A stretch of DNA of 32,773 bases from Candidatus Sumerlaeota bacterium (GCA_030613245.1 JAUWMI010000049.1:1-32773); one strand, 5' to 3'; shown: positions 243-15,023, counted from the first letter of the stretch. Numbers and translations are program-made. The notes: generated by a model not told the origin, from the letters alone.

Positions 243-1094
243 TTAATAGAGACTCCAGTCCACTACCCGAGTCGTTGATCCATAAGCTTGACCCGGAGAG
301 GGCACTGTCTCCACCACAAAAGCAGTATAGAAGTTCTCACTCGTTTCGTCATGGCCAGTGATTCCATTGCCGCCGGAGGCAGTCTCACTGGCTTCAGAAG
401 TTACGCTACTTCGGGCAACTGAAGAACCACCAGAATGGTTAATGGCCGGAATCTGACTGGCAACTGCCGTATCGTTGAGATAAGCTGAGGCAACGGCATC
501 ACCATCAGGCCCATCTTTAGTTTTCCCGGTTTTATCAATTGCCTCAGAATTCCCACCAGCAGAGCCTGTGGCAGTCTCTTCATAATCCACATAATCAACA
601 TCATCAACTAAATCAGAGACCCCGGCCCAATAAAAGAGCAGGACACATTCTCCTGCGTTAGTAAGACCCGCGCTAGCTCCTATGCTTCCAGTTTGTGTTT
701 CAAGCATATCCGGAACTGACCCAGAAGTGCCAAGAAGTTCATAATCAGCGTCAAATGCATAGGTGGTATTAAAAGCCGCACCATCCATAGCTACGACTAA
801 ATATTGACCATTAGCAATCGATGCTCCTGAAGGGAACTGGCAGAGAAAATCAGAAGAGTAATCAGTGTAGGTGTCATCGACTACGTTGATATAGTCGTCG
901 TCATTGGTATAGTTGGCATCGTAAAGATAGTAGTTCTCAAGATTAACTGTAGAGCCTGTGCCGTTATAAATCTCAATAAATTCTGCGGCTGTTGGCGTAA
1001 CACAGAATTCAGAGATTAGTAGATGGTTAACTTGAGCCGAAGCTATAAAACAGCACAAGCTAAACAAAACTATAAGCATGATAATTTTGCGCAT
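243..1094 (-). CDS. Secreted lamin-tail-domain protein with C-terminal W-x-L-Y motif
   Basis: A 283-residue protein of unknown specific role. Residues 1-20 form a Sec signal peptide (MRKIIMLIVLFSLCCFIASA). Residues about 24-170 look like a lamin tail domain (LTD): the opening pattern LLISEFCVTP then EFIEIYNGTG is typical of bacterial LTD proteins, which are usually exported and often sit beside nucleases or cell-surface modules. The rest is rich in Ser, Thr, Gly and Asp, like an extracellular linker. It ends VVDWSLY, sharing W-x-L-Y with two other secreted proteins here. The ATG is preceded by AAGGAGGG at good spacing. A sigma70-like promoter lies at 1203-1232 and a terminator at 187-217, so it appears monocistronic. 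Secretion is well supported; the function is not known. Confidence 0.82.
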   Translation of the reverse strand: MRKIIMLIVLFSLCCFIASAQVNHLLISEFCVTPTAAEFIEIYNGTGSTVNLENYYLYDANYTNDDDYINVVDDTYTDYSSDFLCQFPSGASIANGQYLVVAMDGAAFNTTYAFDADYELLGTSGSVPDMLETQTGSIGASAGLTNAGECVLLFYWAGVSDLVDDVDYVDYEETATGSAGGNSEAIDKTGKTKDGPDGDAVASAYLNDTAVASQIPAINHSGGSSVARSSVTSEASETASGGNGITGHDETSENFYTAFVVETVPSPGQAYGSTTRVVDWSLY

Positions 1095-1160
1095 TTTAAC
1101 CCTCCTTTTCTTTTTTTCTACTACCTAAAGGTTGTTTCATATTGCAGCCTAAAAATTCGT

Positions 1161-1170
1161 TCACCTCCTT
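1161..1170 (-). promoter_or_regulatory. Orphan strong Shine-Dalgarno in the lamin-tail leader
   Basis: The minus strand reads AAGGAGGTGA, a full Shine-Dalgarno match, about 70 bases upstream of the gene's own SD. A 22-codon frame from the overlapping GTG (1164) stops at 1096, one base before the ATG of the main gene. The GTG is too close to the SD for ordinary initiation, so whether a leader peptide is made is uncertain. Confidence 0.35.
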
Positions 1171-1202
1171 ATTTATCATTTATCAATAGACCAAAACATT
1201 TA

Positions 1203-1232
1203 CCTATACCTCTATCTCAGTCCTTGTGTCAA
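1203..1232 (-). promoter_or_regulatory. Predicted sigma70 promoter of the lamin-tail gene
   Basis: On the minus strand a perfect -35 TTGACA (1227-1232) is separated by 18 bases from a -10-like TATAGG (1203-1208). It implies a leader of roughly 100 bases before the ATG at 1094. The -35 is strong and the -10 is moderate. Confidence 0.6.
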
Positions 1233-1387
1233 TTGAAAAATTGAGGCCATTTTCAGAAGCTTGGCTTATTTGCTATCGTATATTTGCTGATGTTCACCTT
1301 GTATTCAGAGAAAACGCCTCCAGCTCCCTGCTCACTCTCGGCATTGTGACAAACGGTGTCTGGGAGACTATGGCATTAATGGAATCT

Positions 1388-1416
1388 GTAGGGGCAGGTT
1401 TCAAACCTGCCCCTAC
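1388..1416. repeat. Dispersed TAGGGGC palindrome (perfect copy)
   Basis: Two perfect 14-base arms (GTAGGGGCAGGTTT and its complement) surround a single central base. This is the cleanest member of the family in the window. In the plus frame it encodes GAGFKPAP, a peptide that commonly appears in spurious predicted proteins. Confidence 0.9.
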
Positions 1417-1439
1417 TTTTCGAATAGAGACACGCTGTC

Positions 1440-1497
1440 ATTCTGACCCGCCGCAGGTTGAGAATGCGCCTTGTGCGTGCGGACGAAGAATCTCAAA
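1440..1497. repeat. CATTCTGA / GAAGAATCTC dispersed repeat
   Basis: The segment begins TCATTCTGACCC and ends CGAAGAATCTCAA, with a GC-rich middle. These end sequences are the hallmark of a dispersed element seen between genes in many bacterial genomes (established knowledge of the pattern; only one copy is in this window). Confidence 0.6.
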
Positions 1498-1519
1498 TTA
1501 TCAATTTTGGCATTGCAGT

Positions 1520-1583
1520 GTAGGGGCACGCCGCGGCGTGCCCCCACCGGATACCGTCTCTCGTCGTCATAATTATGAAAATG
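1520..1583. repeat. Composite repeat copy B: GC palindrome plus 36-bp tail
   Basis: The palindrome GTAGGGGCACGCC / GGCGTGCCCCCAC (1520-1547, one arm mismatch) is followed by a 36-base tail (1548-1583) matching the tail at 52-87 in 31 positions. The tail includes the small palindrome CATAATTATG. It is in direct orientation relative to copy A. Confidence 0.75.
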
Positions 1584-1694
1584 CCTACCACATGTCTAAG
1601 CCTTTCAAGCTGAAGCACGTGCGAGGTGCATGTCGTAGTGGATGGGTTTGGTGCGAAAGAGATTAACCTTAACAGAGAATTCACGATTTTTTTA

Positions 1695-1724
1695 TTGACT
1701 TTTCTAAGACCCGCTGGGTATAAA
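1695..1724 (+). promoter_or_regulatory. Predicted sigma70 promoter for the OB-fold-like secreted protein
   Basis: TTGACT (1695-1700), an 18-base spacer and TATAAA (1719-1724) match the sigma70 consensus at 5/6 positions in each box. It lies about 360 bases upstream of the ATG at 2086, so the transcript would have an unusually long leader. Confidence 0.65.
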
Positions 1725-1756
1725 GAAAGGATTGATTAGAGAAGGAAGATCTTACG

Positions 1757-2085
1757 CTCCCAGCTCATTGTCGGCATTGTACTCTTGCAGTTAAGCGCTC
1801 GCGCCCACGTGAATCCCAGTGCTTACCAGGCTCTCTGGCACCACGGTAAATGTCAAAGCCGTTTAGGTTATATTTATGCGAAGGTGTGCTGGGGGAATGA
1901 AATCTTATTTTGGACATTGGACGTAACCTACGTGACGCTCGTGGGCAAGCAGAGCGAGCGAGGTTCGAAAGGAGGTGATCCTGACCCGAAGACCTAATCA
2001 GGAAAACATTAAATAAGCGTGCGTATGAGTATTGTGTGTAAAGTTTTGTAGTACGATAATGACTAATCTAAGGAGGGACCATCAC
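1757..2085 (+). promoter_or_regulatory. Long, possibly structured 5' leader
   Basis: The leader between the promoter at 1695-1724 and the ATG at 2086 contains nested complementarity. CGCTCG and GCCCACG near 1797-1811 can pair with CGTGGGC and CGAGCG near 1939-1960. Between them, TTACC...GGTAA and CCAGG/CTGG pairs occur near 1823-1852. Near its end is AAAGGAGGTGATCC, followed by a CCTGA/TCAGG hairpin. I found no match to the TPP, cobalamin or c-di-GMP riboswitch consensus from memory. It could be a regulatory RNA or a decayed remnant such as an intron fragment. Confidence 0.35.
1967..1981 (+). other. 15-base exact complement of the 16S rRNA 3' end
   Basis: GAAAGGAGGTGATCC is the exact complement of the near-universal 16S rRNA tail GGATCACCTCCTTTC. 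No start codon follows at a working distance, and the true SD of the downstream gene is a separate AAGGAGGG at 2070-2077. Confidence 0.6.
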
Positions 2086-2862
2086 ATGAAACATTATTGG
2101 ATTTTCGGAATGGCACTGGTTGCTTCTATTCTCTTGCTAGCCGTGCCCGGGTTCACCCAGACCTATACAGATGTGGCAAACATCACTGCGGCCCGCGCCG
2201 AGAGTGATGGGACGTATGTTAACATCACCGGGAAGGTGAAGGTGCTTGGCCATGGTAAGCTCCAATTCAATCCTATATACCCTGACTTCGCTGTTCAGGA
2301 CACTTCGGGTACAGACGGACAGACCGGCATTTTTGTCTATTACGGCTCAAAGGTCGAGGGTATCTCAGAGGGTTCCACTATCAGTGGTTTGAAGGGTCAG
2401 CTGATCAACTATAACGATATGTGGGAGATATCTCTGCAAAATTCTCTCATCACTGCATACACGCCAACCATCTACACCGGCGGCGATGTCTTGCCTGATC
2501 CAGCACCTCTGGTATTGACCGGCACAGAGTATACAACCAATTACGCAAACTATGAAGGTGAGCTTATTCAGCTGGCGGGTACGTTTGACAGCCCCGGTGG
2601 CACTTTTCCTAGTGGAAACACAAACCATGATTTTACCACGAGTGACGCGCAGGCCATAGTCGTCCGGGTTTTTGGTGCATCTGATCTGCCTGGCGATCCG
2701 ATTCCAAGTGGCACGCAGACCATCATTGGTAATGCCGCAATATACCAGGCGAATATTCAGATCTGGCCGCGCTTTGATACCGATCTCCAGGTCTGGACGG
2801 CGCCGACGCCGACGCCTGGGCCGACCACTGCTGTTTCCGTGCATTGGGAGCTGTATCAATAG
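2086..2862 (+). CDS. Secreted OB-fold-like protein with C-terminal W-x-L-Y motif
   Basis: A 258-residue exported protein of unknown role. The start is the ATG at 2086, chosen because AAGGAGGG lies 8 bases upstream and a Sec signal peptide follows (hydrophobic core MALVASILLLAVPGF, likely cleavage after FTQ). The mature part begins TYTDVANITAARAESDGTYV and then VNITGKVKVL, a pattern typical of bacterial OB-fold domains found in exported nucleases and surface proteins. A second similar beta-rich segment covers about residues 150-235 (YEGELIQLAGTF...). A TPTPTPGP linker precedes the C-terminus VSVHWELYQ, which shares W-x-L-Y with two other secreted proteins in the window. It is monocistronic, with a terminator at 2979-3021. 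No catalytic motif is visible. Confidence 0.8.
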   Translation: MKHYWIFGMALVASILLLAVPGFTQTYTDVANITAARAESDGTYVNITGKVKVLGHGKLQFNPIYPDFAVQDTSGTDGQTGIFVYYGSKVEGISEGSTISGLKGQLINYNDMWEISLQNSLITAYTPTIYTGGDVLPDPAPLVLTGTEYTTNYANYEGELIQLAGTFDSPGGTFPSGNTNHDFTTSDAQAIVVRVFGASDLPGDPIPSGTQTIIGNAAIYQANIQIWPRFDTDLQVWTAPTPTPGPTTAVSVHWELYQ

Positions 2863-2896
2863 CCGGAGCCGCGTTTGATTGCTGGGAACTTTAAGA

Positions 2897-2943
2897 GTAG
2901 GAGCAGTTACGCCTGAGGCGCACAAGTCATGAACTGCCCCTAC
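2897..2943. repeat. Dispersed TAGGGGC palindrome with extended loop
   Basis: The arms GTAGGAGCAGTT and AACTGCCCCTAC flank a 23-base loop that contains GCGCCTGAGGCGC. It looks like a family member whose centre has been replaced or expanded. Confidence 0.65.
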
Positions 2944-2978
2944 TATCTGAAGTAACGAGAAAGTAGCGGCAGGTTTTT

Positions 2979-3021
2979 CCCCTGAGGGATTTTAGCCGAA
3001 TCACTCAGGGGTGTTTTTTTT
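2979..3021 (+). terminator. Rho-independent terminator after the OB-fold-like gene
   Basis: CCCCTGAG (2979-2986) pairs perfectly with CTCAGGGG (3004-3011), followed by TG and eight T residues. It is placed about 120 bases past the stop at 2862 in the correct orientation. Confidence 0.88.
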
Positions 3022-3156
3022 GTGTCGAGGTTCATCATAAAGATAAAGAGATTCATTCCTTGAGAATCTCTGTGTCTCTGTGTCGGTCTTTGGAGACACG
3101 ATCAAGATGTGCGCCTGAGGCGCATTGACCACTGCGATACAACGTACACATCAGGA

Positions 3157-3189
3157 GTAGGGGCGATCCGCCGCGGTGGGTCGCCCCTC
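3157..3189. repeat. Dispersed TAGGGGC palindrome
   Basis: The arms GTAGGGGCGATCCGCC and GGTGGGTCGCCCCTC are imperfectly complementary around CGC. It lies 18 bases from the next copy at 3208, in tandem. Confidence 0.7.
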
Positions 3190-3207
3190 AATGTGTCATT
3201 CAGAACT

Positions 3208-3236
3208 GTAGGGGGCAGTTCATGAACTGCCCCTAC
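3208..3236. repeat. Dispersed TAGGGGC palindrome
   Basis: GTAGGGGGCAGTTCA faces TGAACTGCCCCTAC with one extra G. The core CAGTTCATGAACTG is shared with the copy between rpsE and rpmD (22681-22709). Confidence 0.8.
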
Positions 3237-3405
3237 TGCTACGCGTCGTGCCGTGGTGGTTTGATAGTTCTTTCTGTTAGGCGCTCATTAATCAAAACAG
3301 GCATAAGGCATTGCACGGTGCACCGTTTTGCAGCAGTTAAATCAATGAAATGACCTCAGGCCTGCCCTCCATGCACATTTCCTGCTTGTGGCAGCGATAA
3401 ATCTC

Positions 3406-3435
3406 TTGACAAAGCCTCAGACCCATCCATATGTT
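3406..3435 (+). promoter_or_regulatory. Predicted sigma70 promoter of galT
   Basis: A perfect TTGACA (3406-3411) is followed after 18 bases by TATGTT (3430-3435, 4 of 6 matches). The ATG of galT is about 110 bases downstream. Confidence 0.5.
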
Positions 3436-3544
3436 CTACGGCATTATTCAGGTTAGAAAGAAAAAAAGGGTATATAAATATAGATAGGCAGCGTTTTTAT
3501 CGAGGCTGGTAATTGACTGCCTACGACACGGTAAGGAGGCGTGA

Positions 3545-4576
3545 ATGCCTGAGTTGCGCAAAGACCCTGTGATTGGCCGCTGGGTTATAGTCGCTACTGA
3601 ACGCGCGAAACGGCCTACCACTTTTGCCAAAACCGAAGAGCTGAAGAGCGAGGGCTTCTGTCCTTTCTGCTCGGGAAACGAAGTCTATACCCCGCCCGAA
3701 GTGCTCAGTTATCGTCCACCTAATTCCCAGAAGGATAAGCCAGGCTGGTGGGTGCGTGTCATTCCCAACAAATTTCCCGCGCTTGGGATCGAGGGACAAC
3801 CGCGGCGTGTCGCAGAAGGCATGTTTGACAAAATGAATGGAATCGGGGCGCACGAAGTGATCGTCGAAACCCCGGAACATAATCTTTCCATTGCTGACAT
3901 GCCGGAGACGCAAGTCCAGGAAGTCATCTGGGCTTACCGCGATCGTACGATCGCACTGCATAAGGATCCGCGGTTCCGCTACGTCCTGATCTTCAAGAAT
4001 CATGGGCGCGATGCTGGTGCGACGTTGGATCATGCGCATTCGCAGATCATTGCCCTGCCGATCGTGCCAAAGCGCGTGCAGGAAGAACTCTCAGGCTCGA
4101 GTCGCTACTACGATTATAAGGAACGCTGCGTATTTTGCGACATCATCCACCAGGAACTGAAGGACAATGTCCGCATCGTGGCCGAAAATGAGCTCTTTCT
4201 TTCCTTCCTGCCCTTCGCATCGCGTTTCCCATTTGAAACGTGGATCATTCCCAAACAGCATGAATCCTACTTTAACGACATTCAGAAAAATGGGGTGATC
4301 GCCCTGAGCAAGATTCTCCGCCTAACGCTGCGGAAAATTCACCTGGCACTCCAGGCACCTGACTATAACTACATCATTCACACCATGTCGTTCGAAAATG
4401 GCCCTGCACCCTTCTATCACTGGCATATCGAGATCATGCCACGGCTAACCAAAGTGGCCGGGTTTGAGTGGGGAACAGGTTTTTATATCAATCCCACGCC
4501 GCCAGAAGAGGCCTGTCGGTATCTCGCGGAGATTGAAGCCGAGGTGCCGGCCAAGGTTAGAGAGATTGCGAAATAA
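3545..4576 (+). CDS. galT: Galactose-1-phosphate uridylyltransferase (GalT family)
   Basis: A 343-residue cytoplasmic HIT-superfamily nucleotidyltransferase, close to the usual GalT length of about 340-350. GalT moves UMP between UDP-glucose and galactose 1-phosphate in the Leloir pathway through a uridylylated histidine. Visible motifs are the zinc cysteines C39-P-F-C42, the catalytic HAHSQ at 163-167 (H165 as nucleophile), a second CVFC pair near residue 195, and HWHIEIMPR in the second HIT half. HAHSQ replaces the HPHGQ of enteric GalT, a form common in other bacterial and thermophile members and close to ADP-glucose phosphorylase, so the exact sugar phosphate is not certain. AAGGAGG precedes the ATG. 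It stands alone, with no galK or galE beside it. Confidence 0.9.
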   Translation: MPELRKDPVIGRWVIVATERAKRPTTFAKTEELKSEGFCPFCSGNEVYTPPEVLSYRPPNSQKDKPGWWVRVIPNKFPALGIEGQPRRVAEGMFDKMNGIGAHEVIVETPEHNLSIADMPETQVQEVIWAYRDRTIALHKDPRFRYVLIFKNHGRDAGATLDHAHSQIIALPIVPKRVQEELSGSSRYYDYKERCVFCDIIHQELKDNVRIVAENELFLSFLPFASRFPFETWIIPKQHESYFNDIQKNGVIALSKILRLTLRKIHLALQAPDYNYIIHTMSFENGPAPFYHWHIEIMPRLTKVAGFEWGTGFYINPTPPEEACRYLAEIEAEVPAKVREIAK

Positions 4577-4680
4577 CACCACTACTACCGCGTTTGTCTA
4601 ACGATTCCTACCATCTCCCTGTGTCCTCTCAATCGCATTATAGCCTATCTTGATTAATGAGCCTGATCATCACTAAACAA

Positions 4681-4857
4681 TGCCACAGAGACACAGAGGC
4701 ACAGAGGCACAGAGATTTTCAAAGAGAGAGAAATTGCAAAATTAAGAATGCAAATATCAAATTTTGAATTTGCCTTTTACAATTTTCATTTTGCAATTTA
4801 CAATTTAGTACTTTTGTGAGCCTTAGGCTCACTGTGCCTCTGTATCTCGGTGGCTCT
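4681..4857. repeat. MITE-like element with CACAGAGACACAGAGGCAC ends
   Basis: The left end CCACAGAGACACAGAGGCAC is matched in inverse by GTGCCTCTGTATCTCGGTGG on the right. Between them lie AT-rich segments of the TTGCAATTTACAATTT type and a GTGAGCCTTAGGCTCAC hairpin (4816-4832). There is no coding capacity. Terminal CACAGAG-type sequences of this kind recur between genes in many bacterial genomes. Confidence 0.65.
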
Positions 4858-4898
4858 ACTGAAGGCAGTCCCCAATTTAGTATCTGGATAGGTTTATA

Positions 4899-4927
4899 TT
4901 GACTCGGCGATGCAAGTTCCGTATTGT
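4899..4927 (+). promoter_or_regulatory. Predicted sigma70 promoter of exeA-gspB
   Basis: TTGACT (4899-4904), a 17-base spacer and TATTGT (4922-4927). It lies 69 bases upstream of the exeA start and is the only good candidate before the operon. Confidence 0.5.
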
Positions 4928-4995
4928 TTGAAAACAAATATGGAGACATAGCGCAGCGGTTCTTTCCCTGTGATTTCAGCTAACGGTTCACGTTC

Positions 4996-6864
4996 ATGTA
5001 CACCAAATTCTTTGGTCTTGCAGAAGCGCCGTTTAATATAACACCCGATTCGCGATTTCTTTTTCTCAGTAAACGCCACAAAGAGGCCCTTGCCAGCTTG
5101 CTTTACGGCATCAAGCACCGCAAGGGCTTTATTGCCATCACCGGAGAGATCGGCTCGGGAAAGACCACCCTCTGCCGGGCATTGCTCAACGAGCTTGATC
5201 CTCACACCACGAAAGTTGCCCTCATTCTGAATTCCTCCCTGAGCGAACTGGAGCTGCTGAAAACGATCAATGAGGAGTTTTCAATTCGCTCCACCTTCGA
5301 CAGCAAGAAAGCGCTTATTGACGAACTTAACCGATTTCTACTTCTGCAAAATAGCCAGGGCAATAATGCCGTCATCATCATAGACGAAGCGCAGAACCTT
5401 TCGCCAGATTGCCTGGAACAAGTCCGCATGCTGGGCAATCTGGAGACCGAAACGGAAAAGCTCCTGCAGATCGTTCTGATTGGCCAGCCGGAGCTTGGGT
5501 ATACATTAATTTTGCCAGCCCTGGAGCAACTGAACCAGCGGATTGCAGTGCGCTATCATATCAGTGCACTGAGCGAAGAGGAAATTGTCCACTACATACG
5601 CCATCGCCTTTTTGTTGCTCAGGCAAAGATTGAAGTCGAGCTTACACCACAAGCCCTCCAACTGATCTACGAATACTCGAAAGGTATTCCCCGCAAAATT
5701 AATCTGGTATGCGATCGAGCCATGCTTGCTGCGTACGTCGAGGCAACGTATACGATAGATGCGAGGCTGGTGAGATGTGCCATTGCGGAACTTGTCGGTG
5801 GCCAACCGCGCGCCCTGACGCGCGAGCAACATCGTGCGCTCGTTGGGCCAACCCGTTTGATTGTCAAATATGCGCTGGTTGGAAGCGCACTCGTCATTCT
5901 CGGTGGTGCCATTGGCGGCGGAATATGGTTTGCTAATTACAACCTACGCTCGCTCATCCAGGACCGGAACACAACGGCACAACGCTCTTCAATCGCCAGC
6001 AAAAGCGAATCTACAGCTGCTGAATCCTCTGGCGCATTGACGAGTGAGGCATCTCTCAACGAGTCCGGGTCGGAGGGTGTAGAGGACGCAGACCAGTCGC
6101 GCTACGAGTCTTCGCAAGCCTCCGTGAGCTTGCCGGAGCCAGCAGAGCTGGCGTCTGAACCGGTCAGACCATCGCCAACTCCAGCAATCTTATATTACAA
6201 CTGGGAATATGACGAGGATAATATTGTCCGGGTGAATGATCCAGGGTACGCGTACCACGCATCAATCCTGACGTGGCTGGGGTTGTGGAATATGCGAGTT
6301 GAACTTTCGGATTTTAAGCACTACAGCCCCGAGACTCTGAGTCAGCTTGCGCTTCTTACAACCAACTCGCCCCTGGGATTGAAGATGGTTGACCTTGACA
6401 GCGAGCTGTCTGAGGCCGTCAAGTATGACGTACCTCTCATTTTGCACCTTGACGACCCAACTGGACGATTCTCACCCTATGTTGTGCTGCAGTGGGTGGA
6501 GGGCGAAGCCTGCACGCTTGCAGATCCTGTGCGTGGCCTTATGATCACCGGACGCAGCAAGGTGGGTAGCTGTTTTCAAAACGCCCTGGCTTTGTATTTT
6601 GATAAGGACGACCTAAGCTCAATCCAGCGGGGTGAAGAAAGCGAACGCATTGGGAAGATACAAGAATATTTATTACGACGGCACTTTTATACCGGCCCTT
6701 TATCGGGCGTATTCGATCTTCAGACTGCAAGAGCGATTAGGAATTTTCAGCGTTACTACAATCTCGAGGCTACAGGCAGACTAGATGAGAAAACGGTTCT
6801 CCTGCTCAGCTCCCGCATGCACTCAGTACGACCTCGCCTGTTCTCGTCCGGAGGTGAAGATTAA
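4996..6864 (+). CDS. exeA: ExeA/GspA-like AAA ATPase with C39-like and peptidoglycan-binding domains
   Basis: A 622-residue inner-membrane ATPase of the ExeA/GspA family. With GspB it helps insert the type II secretion secretin through the peptidoglycan. The start MYTKFFGLAEAPFNITPD is the family signature. Walker A is GEIGSGKTT (50-58) and Walker B is VIIIDEAQ (DE at 129-130), followed by an AAA lid to about residue 275. One membrane helix lies near 288-313, then a Ser/Glu/Pro-rich linker. A periplasmic papain-like (C39-type) segment covers about 395-545, and a PG_binding_1 domain about 548-615 (LSGVFDLQTARAIRNFQ). The SD is weak. gspB follows after two bases. No other gsp genes are in the window, so they must lie elsewhere or the pair serves another secretin. 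Confidence 0.9.
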   Translation: MYTKFFGLAEAPFNITPDSRFLFLSKRHKEALASLLYGIKHRKGFIAITGEIGSGKTTLCRALLNELDPHTTKVALILNSSLSELELLKTINEEFSIRSTFDSKKALIDELNRFLLLQNSQGNNAVIIIDEAQNLSPDCLEQVRMLGNLETETEKLLQIVLIGQPELGYTLILPALEQLNQRIAVRYHISALSEEEIVHYIRHRLFVAQAKIEVELTPQALQLIYEYSKGIPRKINLVCDRAMLAAYVEATYTIDARLVRCAIAELVGGQPRALTREQHRALVGPTRLIVKYALVGSALVILGGAIGGGIWFANYNLRSLIQDRNTTAQRSSIASKSESTAAESSGALTSEASLNESGSEGVEDADQSRYESSQASVSLPEPAELASEPVRPSPTPAILYYNWEYDEDNIVRVNDPGYAYHASILTWLGLWNMRVELSDFKHYSPETLSQLALLTTNSPLGLKMVDLDSELSEAVKYDVPLILHLDDPTGRFSPYVVLQWVEGEACTLADPVRGLMITGRSKVGSCFQNALALYFDKDDLSSIQRGEESERIGKIQEYLLRRHFYTGPLSGVFDLQTARAIRNFQRYYNLEATGRLDEKTVLLLSSRMHSVRPRLFSSGGED

Positions 6865-6866
6865 CG

Positions 6867-7718
6867 ATGAGCACCATTTTCGATGCCCTGAAGAAATCCA
6901 GCAAGGAAAGAAAACACCACGTCACAAAGTCCGTTACGCACGGACTTGAAGATCGACTCTGCCAGATTGCCGGTGAGGCGCACGGCGATGCACCCAGACC
7001 CCCGGCTCGGCGCCCTTTGCTCCTTATTGGGGGAATCGTGGTGGTTCTGGCAGCTGTCGTGCTTGTGCTCTCGCTTGTTGTGACGTTGTTTCAGAGACCA
7101 GAACACTCGCGTACTTCTGTAGTGTTATCGGACGACGTACAACCTTCAGCGCCTCCTGCCGTTGTCATGCCTGTCGAACCCCAGCCACCAAGCCGACCAA
7201 CAACCGAAGATAAGCGACCTGAACCGAGAATGCTGGCCGTGGCTGATCTGGCCGCCAAGCCTGCAGCGCGTGCTGCGCCTGTGCTGCAGCAAAGTGTCCA
7301 GCCGCCGACAATTATCAAGATTAATCTTCAGCCAGTCACCCCAGCAGCCCCGACAGTCGTACAGGGACCTGCTTTAACTGTTCCCGCAGCGAGTACTCCA
7401 TCCTCACCCGCAAAATCAGCACCTGCTCAGCAAGTCGCTCCACACTTCTCCCCTCAGCCGGTCTTCCCTTCACCTGACGAGCTTGCTAAGGAATCCGCAG
7501 CTTCTGCCGAGGTTTCTTCTGCGCCGATCCGCGAAGAAGGCAAGACGTTTGGTTTACAGCTGGAGGGAATTGTGTGGGACAAAACCGAGCCAATGGCGAT
7601 GATCAATGGAAAAATCGTTGAAGAAGGCGACAAGATCGAGGGCGTCAGGATTGTGAAAATACTCAAGACCACAGTTGAGATCGAAAAGGAAGGAAAGCAT
7701 TACTCCATAAAATACTAG
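6867..7718 (+). CDS. gspB: GspB-like type II secretion assembly protein
   Basis: A 283-residue inner-membrane partner of ExeA/GspA. The N-terminus MSTIFDALKKSSKERK is the typical cytoplasmic start of GspB. One transmembrane helix lies at residues 51-74. A long Pro/Ala/Val-rich periplasmic spacer (about 80-220) is followed by the GspB C-terminal domain (about 225-283: LEGIVWDKTEPMAMINGKIV...), which is related to the GspC HR/PilP fold that docks on secretins. The start lies two bases after the exeA stop, so the two are translationally coupled. A terminator follows at 7728-7785. The long proline-rich spacer suits a protein that must span the periplasm and reach the peptidoglycan. Confidence 0.87.
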   Translation: MSTIFDALKKSSKERKHHVTKSVTHGLEDRLCQIAGEAHGDAPRPPARRPLLLIGGIVVVLAAVVLVLSLVVTLFQRPEHSRTSVVLSDDVQPSAPPAVVMPVEPQPPSRPTTEDKRPEPRMLAVADLAAKPAARAAPVLQQSVQPPTIIKINLQPVTPAAPTVVQGPALTVPAASTPSSPAKSAPAQQVAPHFSPQPVFPSPDELAKESAASAEVSSAPIREEGKTFGLQLEGIVWDKTEPMAMINGKIVEEGDKIEGVRIVKILKTTVEIEKEGKHYSIKY

Positions 7719-7727
7719 TCTCTACTC

Positions 7728-7785
7728 GCGCGCTAACGTGAAACTCATGCTAAGGCATACTGCTCGTAATGCGCGCTTTTTTTAT
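7728..7785 (+). terminator. Terminator of exeA-gspB
   Basis: GCGCGC (7728-7733) plus TAACG pairs with CGTAAT plus GCGCGC (7771-7776), followed by seven T residues. The loop holds a smaller ATGC/GCAT hairpin. It lies 10 bases after the stop. Confidence 0.7.
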
Positions 7786-7835
7786 TTTCGGTTCTTCAGA
7801 GAAAATTGCGCAACGAATGAAGATTGATCTAATTC

Positions 7836-7910
7836 TGCATATATCTGCGTGCATCTGTGGTTGCAGCACTAACTCAAGTAGTGAAACCACAGATGAACAC
7901 AGATAAACAG
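7836..7910. repeat. CATCTGTGGTT inverted repeat
   Basis: ATCTGCGTGCATCTGTGGTTGC on the left is answered by GAAACCACAGATGAACACAG on the right, giving an imperfect inverted repeat around an 18-base centre. It is a common style of intergenic element, with one copy here. Confidence 0.65.
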
Positions 7911-8043
7911 CAAAGACTTTTTGCTTTATTGTTCATTTTATTTGTACAGCACAAAAAATAACGATGACCCTTATAGAACGCTAAAGAGGTTGCAGAAAAA
8001 TACTGGAAGGCGCAGGTATGGAGTATAGGAGGGATTCAAATGA

Positions 8044-9756
8044 TCATCGATACAGTTGCCACAGGCTTTTCTCAACAGCAGCCGGGATGTCCTGAGAGTG
8101 AGAGGTAATTATATTGAAGTATTCGTATCGTGCAGTGCCGAACAGTGCCCACACGCTTCCGAAACCGCTATTGACGCCCGAAACTCTGTCTCCTGTCAGC
8201 ATAAAATCATCTATTGCGTCGCCGTTGATATCGCCTGTAGCAAGATGATAGCCAACAAAATCGCCTGGTTCCCCGCCCAGTATGTCAACATCAGCGTGTC
8301 GGTCGCCAACCCAAGCATAGCCAGAGAGAACATCCGTGCCACTTCTCCCCATAATAATGTAAGCAGCTCCAGCATAATCCCGACCTGCTGCCGCTCCATA
8401 GGGGACTGACATAATCACGTCCGCAATGTTGTCGTCATTCAGGTTGAAGGTAGCGACGCGATGGCCGAAGTGGCCGTTAACGAAGGTAGAGCCGACCGTT
8501 AAATCAACGTGGCTCTGAAGATTGAAGTACAGAATATTCCTGAATCGGCCCTTGTTGTAGACAAAATATACCTTTCCAGCATTTGAGACGTTAAGCAAAT
8601 CCCCATACGGTGCGCCGATTATCAAATCCTGCAGCCCATCGCCGTCGCAATCGCCGACCGCCACAGCAGAGCCGGCTGTGTCGTTTGCCATTGGATTAAT
8701 GATCATGACGCTGGGTGCCCGCTGAGCGAGATCAATTGTCCAGTGCTCCACTGTCGGACCGCTAGTGAGAAGATCACTGTTATGCAGAATGTAGACCTTT
8801 CCGGAATATGGGGCGTACTCACTATTCATGGGCGCTCCAATGACGAGGTCAGGACGTGAGTCGTCGTTCATATCGCCGATTGCAAGCGATGCACCCAGCT
8901 GGTCATTCTCATCCTCGGCAAGGATCACAACGTGAGGTGACGGGACGGAATGGATGGGTGTGAAGTGGAAAGGAATAAAGTCGCGGCCAAAAAAGATATC
9001 CACTTCTCCGCCAGTGCCGGCATGGGGCGAGCCGATCACCAGATCCTCTTTGCCATCCATATCAATATCCGCAAAAAGCAGCACCTCGCCAAATCGGTCG
9101 CCAACCTCACGACCCGTGATATAGAACGAATTGGTATAAAAACGTTCCTGCTCCAGATCGAGGGTGCCATGAATTCCGCTGCGGCCACGCAAGAGATACA
9201 CGCGTCCAGTACCTGATGGCCCAAGGCGCTCACTCGCCGTAATTGCGAGATCATCATACCCGTCACCGTCAAAATCGCCTGCTGCCACCGCATCGCCAAA
9301 TAAATATCCTGCAACCTCGCCATTGATCTGGACACCCGCAGGCCGGCCAAATTTGTCGTCATAATTGAGCCTTGATATCGTGGGAGCCGATATAGGTGTA
9401 GAGGTGGTTAAATCAAAGAAATTCTCTTCTGCTTGACCAATGCCAGTCCCGTAGTTCAGTCCAAAGCGAATGTAAACGATCCCTGTGTCCGCCGTGCCCT
9501 CGCACATAGCGCGGGGAGCGCACATGATCATATCGCCGTAACCATCGCCGTTGACGTCACCAATTGCTACCGGGCCAATCCGGCCAAGATTGCGTCGATT
9601 GTCACATATTCGGTAGTCTTCCATCCAGACCATGAGATCCTCAACGTTTTCTCCAGGCTGTGCGTAAAGTGTTTGAACAATGAGCAGGCTAAGAATGCAT
9701 AGCACGAGAATGATTTTCGTGGGGGCGCTTATTTTCATAACAGTGCGGGTTCTCAT
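8044..9756 (-). CDS. Secreted FG-GAP seven-repeat beta-propeller protein with C-terminal W-x-L-Y motif
   Basis: A 570-residue exported protein. An N-terminal signal (core IILVLCILSLLIVQTLYAQ, about 14-32) precedes seven FG-GAP/integrin-alpha type repeats with Ca-binding loops: GDVNGDGYGD, GDFDGDGYDD, ADIDMDGKED, GDMNDDSRPD, GDCDGDGLQD, FNLNDDNIAD and GDINGDAIDD. Seven such repeats suit a complete seven-blade propeller of the integrin alpha type, often used for surface binding. The sixth and seventh loops are less canonical. The protein ends EKSLWQLYR, sharing W-x-L-Y with two other secreted proteins here. No good SD is seen. A second ATG six codons in (9738) is an equally possible start and keeps the whole signal peptide. 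A strong promoter lies at 9888-9917. The ligand is unknown. Confidence 0.87.
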   Translation of the reverse strand: MRTRTVMKISAPTKIILVLCILSLLIVQTLYAQPGENVEDLMVWMEDYRICDNRRNLGRIGPVAIGDVNGDGYGDMIMCAPRAMCEGTADTGIVYIRFGLNYGTGIGQAEENFFDLTTSTPISAPTISRLNYDDKFGRPAGVQINGEVAGYLFGDAVAAGDFDGDGYDDLAITASERLGPSGTGRVYLLRGRSGIHGTLDLEQERFYTNSFYITGREVGDRFGEVLLFADIDMDGKEDLVIGSPHAGTGGEVDIFFGRDFIPFHFTPIHSVPSPHVVILAEDENDQLGASLAIGDMNDDSRPDLVIGAPMNSEYAPYSGKVYILHNSDLLTSGPTVEHWTIDLAQRAPSVMIINPMANDTAGSAVAVGDCDGDGLQDLIIGAPYGDLLNVSNAGKVYFVYNKGRFRNILYFNLQSHVDLTVGSTFVNGHFGHRVATFNLNDDNIADVIMSVPYGAAAGRDYAGAAYIIMGRSGTDVLSGYAWVGDRHADVDILGGEPGDFVGYHLATGDINGDAIDDFMLTGDRVSGVNSGFGSVWALFGTARYEYFNIITSHSQDIPAAVEKSLWQLYR

Positions 9757-13027: not shown

Positions 13028-13056
13028 GTAGGGGCAGTTCAATTGAACGCCCCTAC
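13028..13056. repeat. Dispersed TAGGGGC palindrome containing a stop codon
   Basis: GTAGGGGCAGTTCAA faces TTGAACGCCCCTAC with one extra base. The minus-strand gene ending at 13039 runs into this copy: its last residues VGAFN and its TGA stop are read from the palindrome. Confidence 0.85.
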
Positions 13057-14865
13057 TGTCTCTTCTGGGCCAAAAAGCTCAACATCTATGATGGAATAAG
13101 TGCTTATCGCGCGCTTTCCTTTTGTGCAGGCAATTTTGATAAAGCGTATGGTCTGCGGCGGAAACGTAATCGTTGTGGTGCCGCCGGAACCTTTGTCTGT
13201 CTGATACACGTTGCGCCAGCGCTTTCCATCCTCTGAGACAATCACCCCAAAGTTGGTTGCAGCCTGCGGGCCCCAGATGATGCGGCATTCAGCAACCTGG
13301 CGTGGCTCGACCAGATCGATGGTAAGCCATGCTTCATCCGTGCCGTCTCTAGACACCCATGCCGGGGATGCCCAGCGGGTGTGAGGATCGCCGTCAATTG
13401 CGCTTTGGGGCTTGAAGGAGGGTCCGGTTTCGCTATAGCCAGAGGCCATGGCAATGGCGCCGCGGACCAGATTGGGCCTCGCCACTGCCGACTTCGCCGT
13501 GAATTCAATTGCTGTGATCGAATACGGTGGTGCGAGATACCTGAACGCGTGGCCATGCACGGGAAGATCCGGGAGTGCGCTACCGAATTCACTTTTTGAA
13601 ACACGCCAGATCCTTGCCGTTGGCGCTGGCTGAAAATTCTCAAGTGCAATTGTCACGAAGTAAGCCTTCTTTGGATCCTTGTTCAGCAGTATTACACCGA
13701 GTCGCCCGCCATCTGGCCGGCATGCGAAGAGGCGAAGTTTGTCGCTTGCACCTGTGAGTTGTGCGCTCAACAATGTGCCGCCGAAATGGTGAGCCATCAG
13801 GCGAAACACGTAATACGTATAAGACGGCGTGTTAGAGCCGTCTGCAGAGAGGAAACCGAAGTCTCCGCGCCGTGGCGGATAGTAATTATGCATAGCCCAT
13901 AAGCACGCCATGTCGGTTCCGGTTTCGGCAAACATGCCGAGCATTTCTCCTACATATATGCCATTTCCGAGCGACAGTGTTTGAGGGCCTGGAAATGAGG
14001 ATACGGAGTTATAGCCGACGCAGCAGTACTTCATGGTATCCGCACAATCAGGAATGGCGGCCTTTACTGTAGCCTGCAGGGTGTTAAACATCTCGCGAAA
14101 CTTCGCAGGCGCGGTGAACAGATTCTCATCCGTCTCTGCTTGTCTCCCGAGCGGGAAAAAGGTAAACGTAATGATGTTGCATTCCTGTCCGAGCGCTGCC
14201 AGGGCCTGTCTGTTCCACTCCTGGTGCGACTCAGAGAGACTCATATTAGCAGCCATCTGAATTGTTGGGTCAATGGCGCGCATGGCACGCGCAAAACGCA
14301 CGAACCGATTGCCATATTCCCGGCCGCTTGCGTGGCTGTCGGCCCATGACCCCCATGCTTCATCACCAACCTCCCAGAGCTGGATGGCGTAGTTGTGCTT
14401 ACGATTACAATACTCAACCCACTGGGCGGCCAGCTCGGGCGACTCCGACGCATTCGCCGTGATGAATCCAACTGCACCGGTGGTACGCAAAAAGGCATAA
14501 TATTCTTCGGTGTCCATCTCCGATTTCATATTCGCCGGGTCATTCCAGATATACTTATCAGCGTCATTGCCTCCTGGATATTTCAACAGCGTCACTCCGG
14601 CCTCTTTGACTTTACGAATTGCATCTCGATCGCAGGTGAGCAACATCTGGTCGGCAGGATAAGGGAAGAGCGACTCGTCCCAGCGTGCTGTGTTCAAGCC
14701 ATACAGCAACGGATTGATTGTGCCGGCCGGCGCTGCCGCATCTATTCGCACCAAAACGACCTCGTCTGTCTCAAGAACAAGCGGGGGACTCGTCGGGTTC
14801 TCTCCATAGGCCATTATTGCACTTGCTATGAATATGAGCACGAGCCAGAGACGCACTGGATTCAT
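13039..14865 (-). CDS. Secreted GH51-like protein with F5/8 type C domain, probable loss of the catalytic nucleophile
   Basis: A 608-residue exported protein. The start is the ATG at 14865 with AAAGGAGTG upstream; a longer frame to 14943 only translates a dispersed repeat (TTKHTKITK). A signal peptide covers 1-20. Residues about 35-455 resemble alpha-L-arabinofuranosidase-like (GH51/clan A) barrels: LLYGLNTARWDES, LKYPGGNDADKY, LWEVGDEAWG, then a beta-sandwich. The expected acid/base E169 is kept, but in GDE rather than GNE. At the expected nucleophile, where relatives have T/D-E-Y/W-N, this protein reads CCVGYNS with Gly284. GGC is two changes from a Glu codon, so a single sequencing error is unlikely. 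Residues 465-599 are an F5/8 type C (CBM32-like) domain. The C-terminus is set by a repeat. It may bind rather than cut arabinose-containing glycans. Confidence 0.82.
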   Translation of the reverse strand: MNPVRLWLVLIFIASAIMAYGENPTSPPLVLETDEVVLVRIDAAAPAGTINPLLYGLNTARWDESLFPYPADQMLLTCDRDAIRKVKEAGVTLLKYPGGNDADKYIWNDPANMKSEMDTEEYYAFLRTTGAVGFITANASESPELAAQWVEYCNRKHNYAIQLWEVGDEAWGSWADSHASGREYGNRFVRFARAMRAIDPTIQMAANMSLSESHQEWNRQALAALGQECNIITFTFFPLGRQAETDENLFTAPAKFREMFNTLQATVKAAIPDCADTMKYCCVGYNSVSSFPGPQTLSLGNGIYVGEMLGMFAETGTDMACLWAMHNYYPPRRGDFGFLSADGSNTPSYTYYVFRLMAHHFGGTLLSAQLTGASDKLRLFACRPDGGRLGVILLNKDPKKAYFVTIALENFQPAPTARIWRVSKSEFGSALPDLPVHGHAFRYLAPPYSITAIEFTAKSAVARPNLVRGAIAMASGYSETGPSFKPQSAIDGDPHTRWASPAWVSRDGTDEAWLTIDLVEPRQVAECRIIWGPQAATNFGVIVSEDGKRWRNVYQTDKGSGGTTTITFPPQTIRFIKIACTKGKRAISTYSIIDVELFGPEETVGAFN

Positions 14866-14877
14866 TTTGCGCACTCC

Positions 14878-14935
14878 TTTTGTGATCTTCGTGTGCTTCG
14901 TGGTTAAACTGTGAGTATTGATCCACCACGAAGAG
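14878..14935. repeat. CTTCGTGTGCTTCGTGGTT (KHTK-type) repeat
   Basis: GTGATCTTCGTGTGCTTCGTGGTT followed by CCACCACGAAG gives an inverted pair like the element at 12071-12151. Read on the minus strand it encodes TTKHTKITK, which extends the open frame of the neighbouring gene artificially. Confidence 0.75.
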
Positions 14936-15023
14936 GTAGACATACTATAATACCATGCGTTTGATCCTGATTGTTAACTCGCCGTGAAGTTTGCTGTTTG
15001 TTTTCAATTCAGCCGCGCAATGT

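Follow-up and report, generated by a model that had tools for sequence, protein, structure and literature searches.

A short C-terminal W-x-L-Y tag on unrelated exported proteins of Candidatus Sumerlaeota

Introduction

Several of the known systems that sort exported bacterial proteins rely on a signal at the C terminus. PEP-CTERM proteins combine a motif, a transmembrane (TM) helix, and a basic end and depend on exosortase (PMC1569441). The MYXO-CTERM signal, which is served by myxosortase (PMC11980579), and the GlyGly-CTERM signal, which is served by rhombosortase (PMC3237569), are tripartite, include both a TM helix and basic residues, and undergo cleavage by an intramembrane protease. Each C-terminal sorting tag compared here led to a dedicated machine, namely, exosortase, rhombosortase, myxosortase, or the type IX secretion system (T9SS).

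Here, we describe a stretch of 32,773 nucleotides from a Candidatus Sumerlaeota bacterium (GCA_030613245.1 JAUWMI010000049.1:1-32773; the window), in which three genes for exported proteins end in the motif W-x-L-Y, and we follow this ending through the source genome (G000) and its phylum. Across the phylum, this ending forms a tag on exported proteins that are otherwise unrelated; it is strictly terminal, is selected at the protein level, occurs in two dialects, and stands in a linker context. As judged on the open-licence literature, the tag looks undescribed: full-text searches of that literature returned no description of a W-x-L-Y tag, and the word C-terminal does not occur in the Sumerlaeota genome survey (PMC8092238).

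Results

Three exported proteins with different folds end in W-x-L-Y

The first of the three genes (positions 243 to 1094, minus strand) encodes a lamin-tail-domain (LTD) protein of 283 amino acids (PF00932, E = 1.1e-11) for which a signal peptide was called. The protein ends STTRVVDWSLY-stop, the short form of the tag (D-W-x-L-Y-COOH); the TTRVVDWSLY region and stop codon occupy 243 to 275 (minus strand), and the short-form pattern GAYTGGNNNHTNTAYTRR matches at G000:C90:243-260. The second gene (2086 to 2862, plus strand) encodes an exported DUF5689-like (OB-like) protein of 258 amino acids, counted from MKHYWIFG (PF18942, E = 8e-8), with a TPTPTPGP linker. Its open reading frame (ORF) closes with GPTTAVSVHWELYQ and thus with the long form (AVSVHWELYQ-stop); the tag, TAVSVHWELYQ plus stop, spans 2827 to 2862 (plus strand; pattern match at C90:2845-2862). 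An exported FG-GAP beta-propeller protein of 564 amino acids, counted from MKISAPT, is encoded by the third gene (8044 to 9738, minus strand; PF01839, E = 2e-52). The ORF opens at 9756, and the chain read from 8044 to 9756 ends in DIPAAVEKSLWQLYR (...SLWQLYR), again the long form, with the tag AAVEKSLWQLYR and its stop at 8044 to 8082 (minus strand; pattern match at C90:8044-8061).

An initial reading of this DNA by itself (the sequence-only reading) had reported these three ORFs, and their positions, frames, and W-x-L-Y endings were confirmed on the DNA; the different folds that it assigned agree with the Pfam matches to LTD (E = 1e-11), DUF5689, and FG-GAP. A Sec-type N-terminal export signal can be read in all three sequences. 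The signal-peptide heuristic described below called two of the three and placed the FG-GAP protein, MKISAPTKIILVLCILSLLIVQTLYAQ, in the membrane class.

The tag is concentrated on secreted proteins of the source genome

Genome-wide statistics were obtained from 1.63 Mb of the 4.29-Mb source genome (38%), taken in stretches. The 1153 genes in this sample came from a simple self-trained caller and were sorted by a home-made signal-peptide heuristic. The ending W-x-[LIF]-Y-x(0,1)-end was found on 33 of 304 signal-peptide proteins; in the cytoplasmic and membrane classes, the counts were 4 of 598 and 3 of 251, respectively (signal peptide versus cytoplasmic, Fisher P = 1.2e-12). When the last 30 residues were shuffled in 2000 rounds, the mean number of tagged proteins was 0.10 and the maximum was 2, against 33 observed. 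The comparison proposed by the sequence-only reading, of secreted proteins with cytoplasmic ones and with shuffled tails, thus shows the tag to be far commoner on secreted proteins. Of the seven tagged proteins outside the signal-peptide class, three are truncated at a contig start, another three begin with a hydrophobic segment that the heuristic overlooked, and the seventh is C26:92933.

The motif is also strictly positioned. W.[LIF]Y occurs 90 times in the sampled proteome, and 40 of these occurrences sit 0 to 1 residue from the C terminus: 5 end exactly at Y, 35 have one further residue, and none has two or three. Two refinements of the originally reported motif concern its Y, which is the last or second-last residue, and its L, in place of which I or F can stand (in relatives, also M).

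The tag is a protein-level, exchangeable terminal module

After removal of their last 15 residues, the 40 tagged proteins, which range from 74 to 2058 amino acids, fell into 30 unrelated BLAST clusters. The Y codons of the tag are evenly divided between TAC (20) and TAT (20), and the L codons are likewise fully mixed; because these codons vary freely, selection acts on the protein rather than on the DNA. Identity over the 45 nucleotides preceding the W codon averages 29% among tagged genes and is 31 to 33% when the window genes are compared with one another. The possibility of recent paralogous tails raised at the outset therefore does not hold.

Conservation is confined to about 10 terminal residues, with the profile [TP]-[TA]-[AV]-[AV]-x-x-W-x-L-Y-[EYQ]. 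The 13 residues upstream of the tag are enriched in proline (13.8% versus 5.4%) and threonine (11.5% versus 7.5%). A TM-like segment lies within the last 45 residues of 1 of the 40 proteins, cysteine is present within the last 30 residues of 8, and lysine or arginine is present within the last 6 residues of 8. The paralogs g921 and g913 share 69% identity over their first 284 residues, after which g921 carries the tag and g913 a different C-terminal module; the tag thus behaves as an exchangeable terminal module. AlphaFold2 models built without an alignment for the FG-GAP and DUF5689 proteins (mean pLDDT, 33.5 and 32.4) were too poor for inference on tag structure.

Two further tails were noted. 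Beside g913 and near g921, gene g912 (G000:C65) has a tail 95% identical to that of g921 that extends 11 residues beyond the tag (RWTLYEIEVQRLGSSLV) and is possibly a stop-loss or decayed copy. Contigs C35 and C48 (G000, bases 59-565) both open with fragments of tagged genes that are 92% identical; the duplication is recent and may be the reason why the assembly breaks there.

Tagged proteins are of extracellular or surface kinds

Tagged proteins matched beta-helix, FG-GAP, NosD-like, golvesin, M6 protease, polysaccharide deacetylase, GHL10, LTD, and comparable families, and the set includes adhesin-like and S-layer-like proteins. Several of the closest NCBIfam relatives depend on the T9SS or on myxosortase in other phyla, or are an anammox S-layer protein. 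A set drawn from the untagged signal-peptide proteins is richer in peptidoglycan enzymes, NHL propellers, and pilins. We infer that these kinds of cargo fit an extracellular or surface destination. No CTERM model was among the 25 commonest of the 42 NCBIfam families matched by whole tagged proteins, and seven tails searched alone matched no NCBIfam family at E values up to 10, a search in which filters can hide weak short matches.

Other endings were seen among untagged proteins. Many large beta-helix proteins (g545, g589, g413, g363, and others; C41, C47, C37, and C32) end in a module of ~190 residues, FDxLNFDPxDxAxAxLxLDxVxIE...P, which homologs of tagged proteins bear in place of the W-x-L-Y tag. 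This ending was rejected as a second tag, being a repeated module with copies inside chains too; a further module for surface or carbohydrate binding is one possible reading. The motif YDPTNGTxSxGDIxR (g272, g684, g685, g772, g773, and g32) is typical of GspG-like pseudopilins in G000 and also terminates larger proteins in which a pilin-like globular domain is embedded (g684 and g685) or which seem unrelated (g772). Within the window, close to the tagged genes, an arabinofuranosidase-like protein (13039 to 14943, minus strand), which is exported and contains an F5/8 C domain, ends EETVGAFN and has no tag; it provides a natural comparison for its tagged neighbors.

Two dialects occur across the phylum

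The comparison set comprised 40 genomes of the phylum (G000 to G039) and 26 genomes of other phyla, with the reversed pattern as the control. Among named genomes, the closest RpoA sequences, from Nitrospinaceae, Omnitrophota, and Planctomycetota, share about 50% identity. Two dialects were distinguished, a long form, A-x-x-x-W-x-L-Y-[ER], and a short form, V-x-D-W-x-[LIM]-Y. At the DNA level, the phylum genomes contained 415 matches to W-x-L-Y-[DEGHQR]-stop (226 for the control) and 173 matches to the short-form pattern D-W-x-[LIMF]-Y-stop (36 for the control). Outside the phylum, where the long form was compared, there was no excess (152 versus 188).

Tagged ORFs, many with a signal peptide, were read in G001, G002, G004, G005, G007, G008, G009, G012, G028, and G037 and also in G039, a genome of another class; further genomes matched at the DNA level. 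The ORFs of G030 use the short form (VVDWQIY, VEDWTIY, VADWQIY, and VQDWEIY). At the relatives' loci, 34 of 199 signal-peptide genes carried the tag, compared to 24 of 501 others, most of which are cut at a locus edge; these loci were partly picked by the pattern itself, and the counts are supportive only. By family, f4, f6, f9, f10, and f14 have the long form only, while f1 to f3, f11, f12, and f13 also have the short form, which is strong in f13 (81 versus 10 for the control).

Known sortases were not found in the source genome

Exosortase/archaeosortase (PF09721) is absent from G000 and present in 4 of the 40 phylum genomes, with a positive result for the Methanocaldococcus jannaschii control; sortase (PF04203) is also absent from G000 and present in 2 of the 40. 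PorV (NF033709) was found in none of the 40 genomes, while its positive control matched. SprA (TIGR04189) gave no match, and its control was likewise silent, so this search was not used as evidence. Enrichment among the neighbors of tagged genes was limited to beta-helix and other secreted families and yielded no candidate reader. The co-occurring protease, sortase-like, or outer-membrane partner that the sequence-only reading had suggested looking for was not identified.

Discussion

The genome-wide test, the tagged ORFs of relatives, the ~30 families concerned, the lack of a CTERM model among the NCBIfam matches, and the absence of sortase, exosortase, and PorV from G000 all support what was first proposed for the window, namely, that exported proteins carry a short C-terminal tag of an undescribed kind. 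From these sequence data, W-x-[LIM]-Y-(0-1 residue)-COOH is likely to be a short linear C-terminal sorting signal that is read after Sec export by a machine of the envelope; its role may be in secretion, anchoring, or processing. Tagged proteins, given their predicted signal peptides, would cross the inner membrane via Sec and fold in the periplasm, and the flexible Pro/Thr/Ala-rich linker seen in their sequences would display the tag. A periplasmic or outer-membrane receptor would recognize the free carboxyl end together with the W, L/I/M, and Y side chains and would hand the protein on, either across the outer membrane or to a surface structure, so that it reaches the cell surface. Given that the tag lacks a hydrophobic helix and that neither sortase nor exosortase was found in G000, the reader is probably not an intramembrane sortase but a soluble or outer-membrane protein. 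The clade dialects (long, -YE/-YR; short, DW..Y-COOH) suggest coevolution with one receptor. More specifically, we tentatively propose that the tag may be the substrate signal of an undescribed, phylum-specific system for outer-membrane secretion or surface attachment, whose receptor would bind the free C terminus directly, with neither a helix nor a folded signal domain.

Several observations weigh against a sorting signal of this kind. Only ~10% of signal-peptide proteins carry the tag, and other exported enzymes are without it; the gene caller and signal-peptide heuristic were home-made and were applied to 38% of the source genome. Reversing the pattern gives a crude control, and the comparison outside the phylum concerned the long form only. 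In family f12, the tag is known from DNA pattern counts alone (short form, 22 versus 5), and a 210-kb sample of G021, a member of this family, contained no tagged protein. No receptor or gene has been linked to the tag.

The tag could instead be a signal of the type II secretion system (T2SS), docking proteins to GspC/GspD or to the pseudopilin tip. A complete T2SS operon lies at C86:144-156 kb in G000 (E, F, G, I, J, K, PilM-like, PilO-like, and D), and the tagged proteins are of the kinds that are T2SS substrates. Between the tagged genes of the window, as genomic context only, lie genes for a GspA/ExeA-like ATPase with a peptidoglycan-binding domain (4996 to 6864, plus strand; AAA_22, E = 9e-28; PG_binding_1, E = 2e-13) and a GspB-like protein with a T2SSB C-terminal domain (6867 to 7718, plus strand; PF16537, E = 7e-5, below the curated cutoff; CdsD_C, E = 3.5e-7). 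Secretins were matched in all 40 genomes, with 2 to 26 matches each. The phylogenetic fit, however, is poor: family f13 has no full-length GspD match above the cutoff despite its strong tags, the markers being divergent, and T2SSK, a weak marker that is not decisive, was not found in G028, G030, and G033. Given these gaps, a T2SS signal is possible but lacks support from co-occurrence. To our knowledge, moreover, T2SS substrates elsewhere share no linear tag, and we consider this explanation unlikely. As a separate observation, the number of secretin-family matches in a genome reaches 26 (G004, G005, and G007), which exceeds what one T2SS and one type IV pilus need, even when split matches are allowed for.

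We are equally doubtful that the tag is a noncovalent retention peptide, which would keep the protein attached to the cell by binding a surface receptor (for example, an S-layer or outer-membrane protein) once the protein has been released, whatever the route. The free terminal position behind flexible linkers agrees with such a role, as do the aromatic W and Y, which are typical of groove-binding short linear motifs, the adhesin-like and S-layer-like proteins in the tagged set, and the variation of dialects by clade. However, no receptor was identified, and other routes would have to export all tagged proteins, whatever their size.

A signal for proteolysis or quality control, for example by a tail-specific (S41) protease, is very unlikely. 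Proteases of the Tsp/Prc type do read the C-terminal position, but their known tags are small or nonpolar, unlike W-x-L-Y-[ER], and the tag is retained phylum-wide on dozens of presumably functional secreted enzymes. Still less probable is a beta-signal of outer-membrane beta-barrels, such as that read by the beta-barrel assembly machinery: the C-terminal aromatic residue and hydrophobic spacing recall it, but the cargo consists of propellers, beta-helices, proteases, and LTD domains rather than barrels, linkers precede the tag, and the W-x-L-Y-x spacing differs from an alternating pattern with a terminal aromatic residue. Coincidence or recent duplication of tails, for which one pair (at the starts of C35 and C48; 96% identical in the tail) could be cited, is refuted by the shuffling result, the 30 clusters, and the low mean tail DNA identity.

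A tag that is so short, has no membrane helix, and varies in dialect by clade implies that its reader differs in type from the known ones. For a phylum about which little is known, the tag offers an immediate handle for predicting, from sequence alone, which proteins are secreted or reach the surface and for finding the machine by phylogenetic profiling. If the T2SS were the reader, the tag would be the first linear signal described for this system, in which the question of how cargo is marked has long stood open.

Comparison with known C-terminal sorting systems

The distinction from PEP-CTERM, LPXTG, the type IX C-terminal domain (CTD), and MYXO-CTERM that was drawn at the outset is borne out, as the tails have no helix, basic end, or folded domain. 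Like the W-x-L-Y tag, LPXTG is a linear C-terminal motif after a linker, but it precedes a TM helix and a basic tail, whereas direct reading of the W-x-L-Y tails showed neither of these and no LPXTG-like motif. The T2SS shares post-Sec export of folded proteins and is present in G000, but it has no known linear tag, and its presence does not appear to track the W-x-L-Y tag. The CTD of the T9SS is, like our tag, a post-Sec C-terminal signal on diverse surface enzymes and adhesins, and the T9SS of other bacteria handles some of the families tagged here; the CTD, however, is a folded domain of about 80 residues, and the 30 unrelated clusters of W-x-L-Y cargo share none. With PEP-CTERM, the tag has in common that a single genome bears one short C-terminal signal on dozens of exported proteins unrelated to each other (PMC1569441) and that both come to light by profiling of C termini, while the helix and basic end are missing from W-x-L-Y tails and exosortase is missing from G000. 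MYXO-CTERM has an invariant cysteine, and the W-x-L-Y tag has no such cysteine, GlyGly, helix, or Arg/Lys-rich end. MYXO-CTERM and GlyGly-CTERM are nevertheless phylum- or clade-wide C-terminal tags on many surface proteins with one reader, and the W-x-L-Y tag is similarly widespread, with many substrates.

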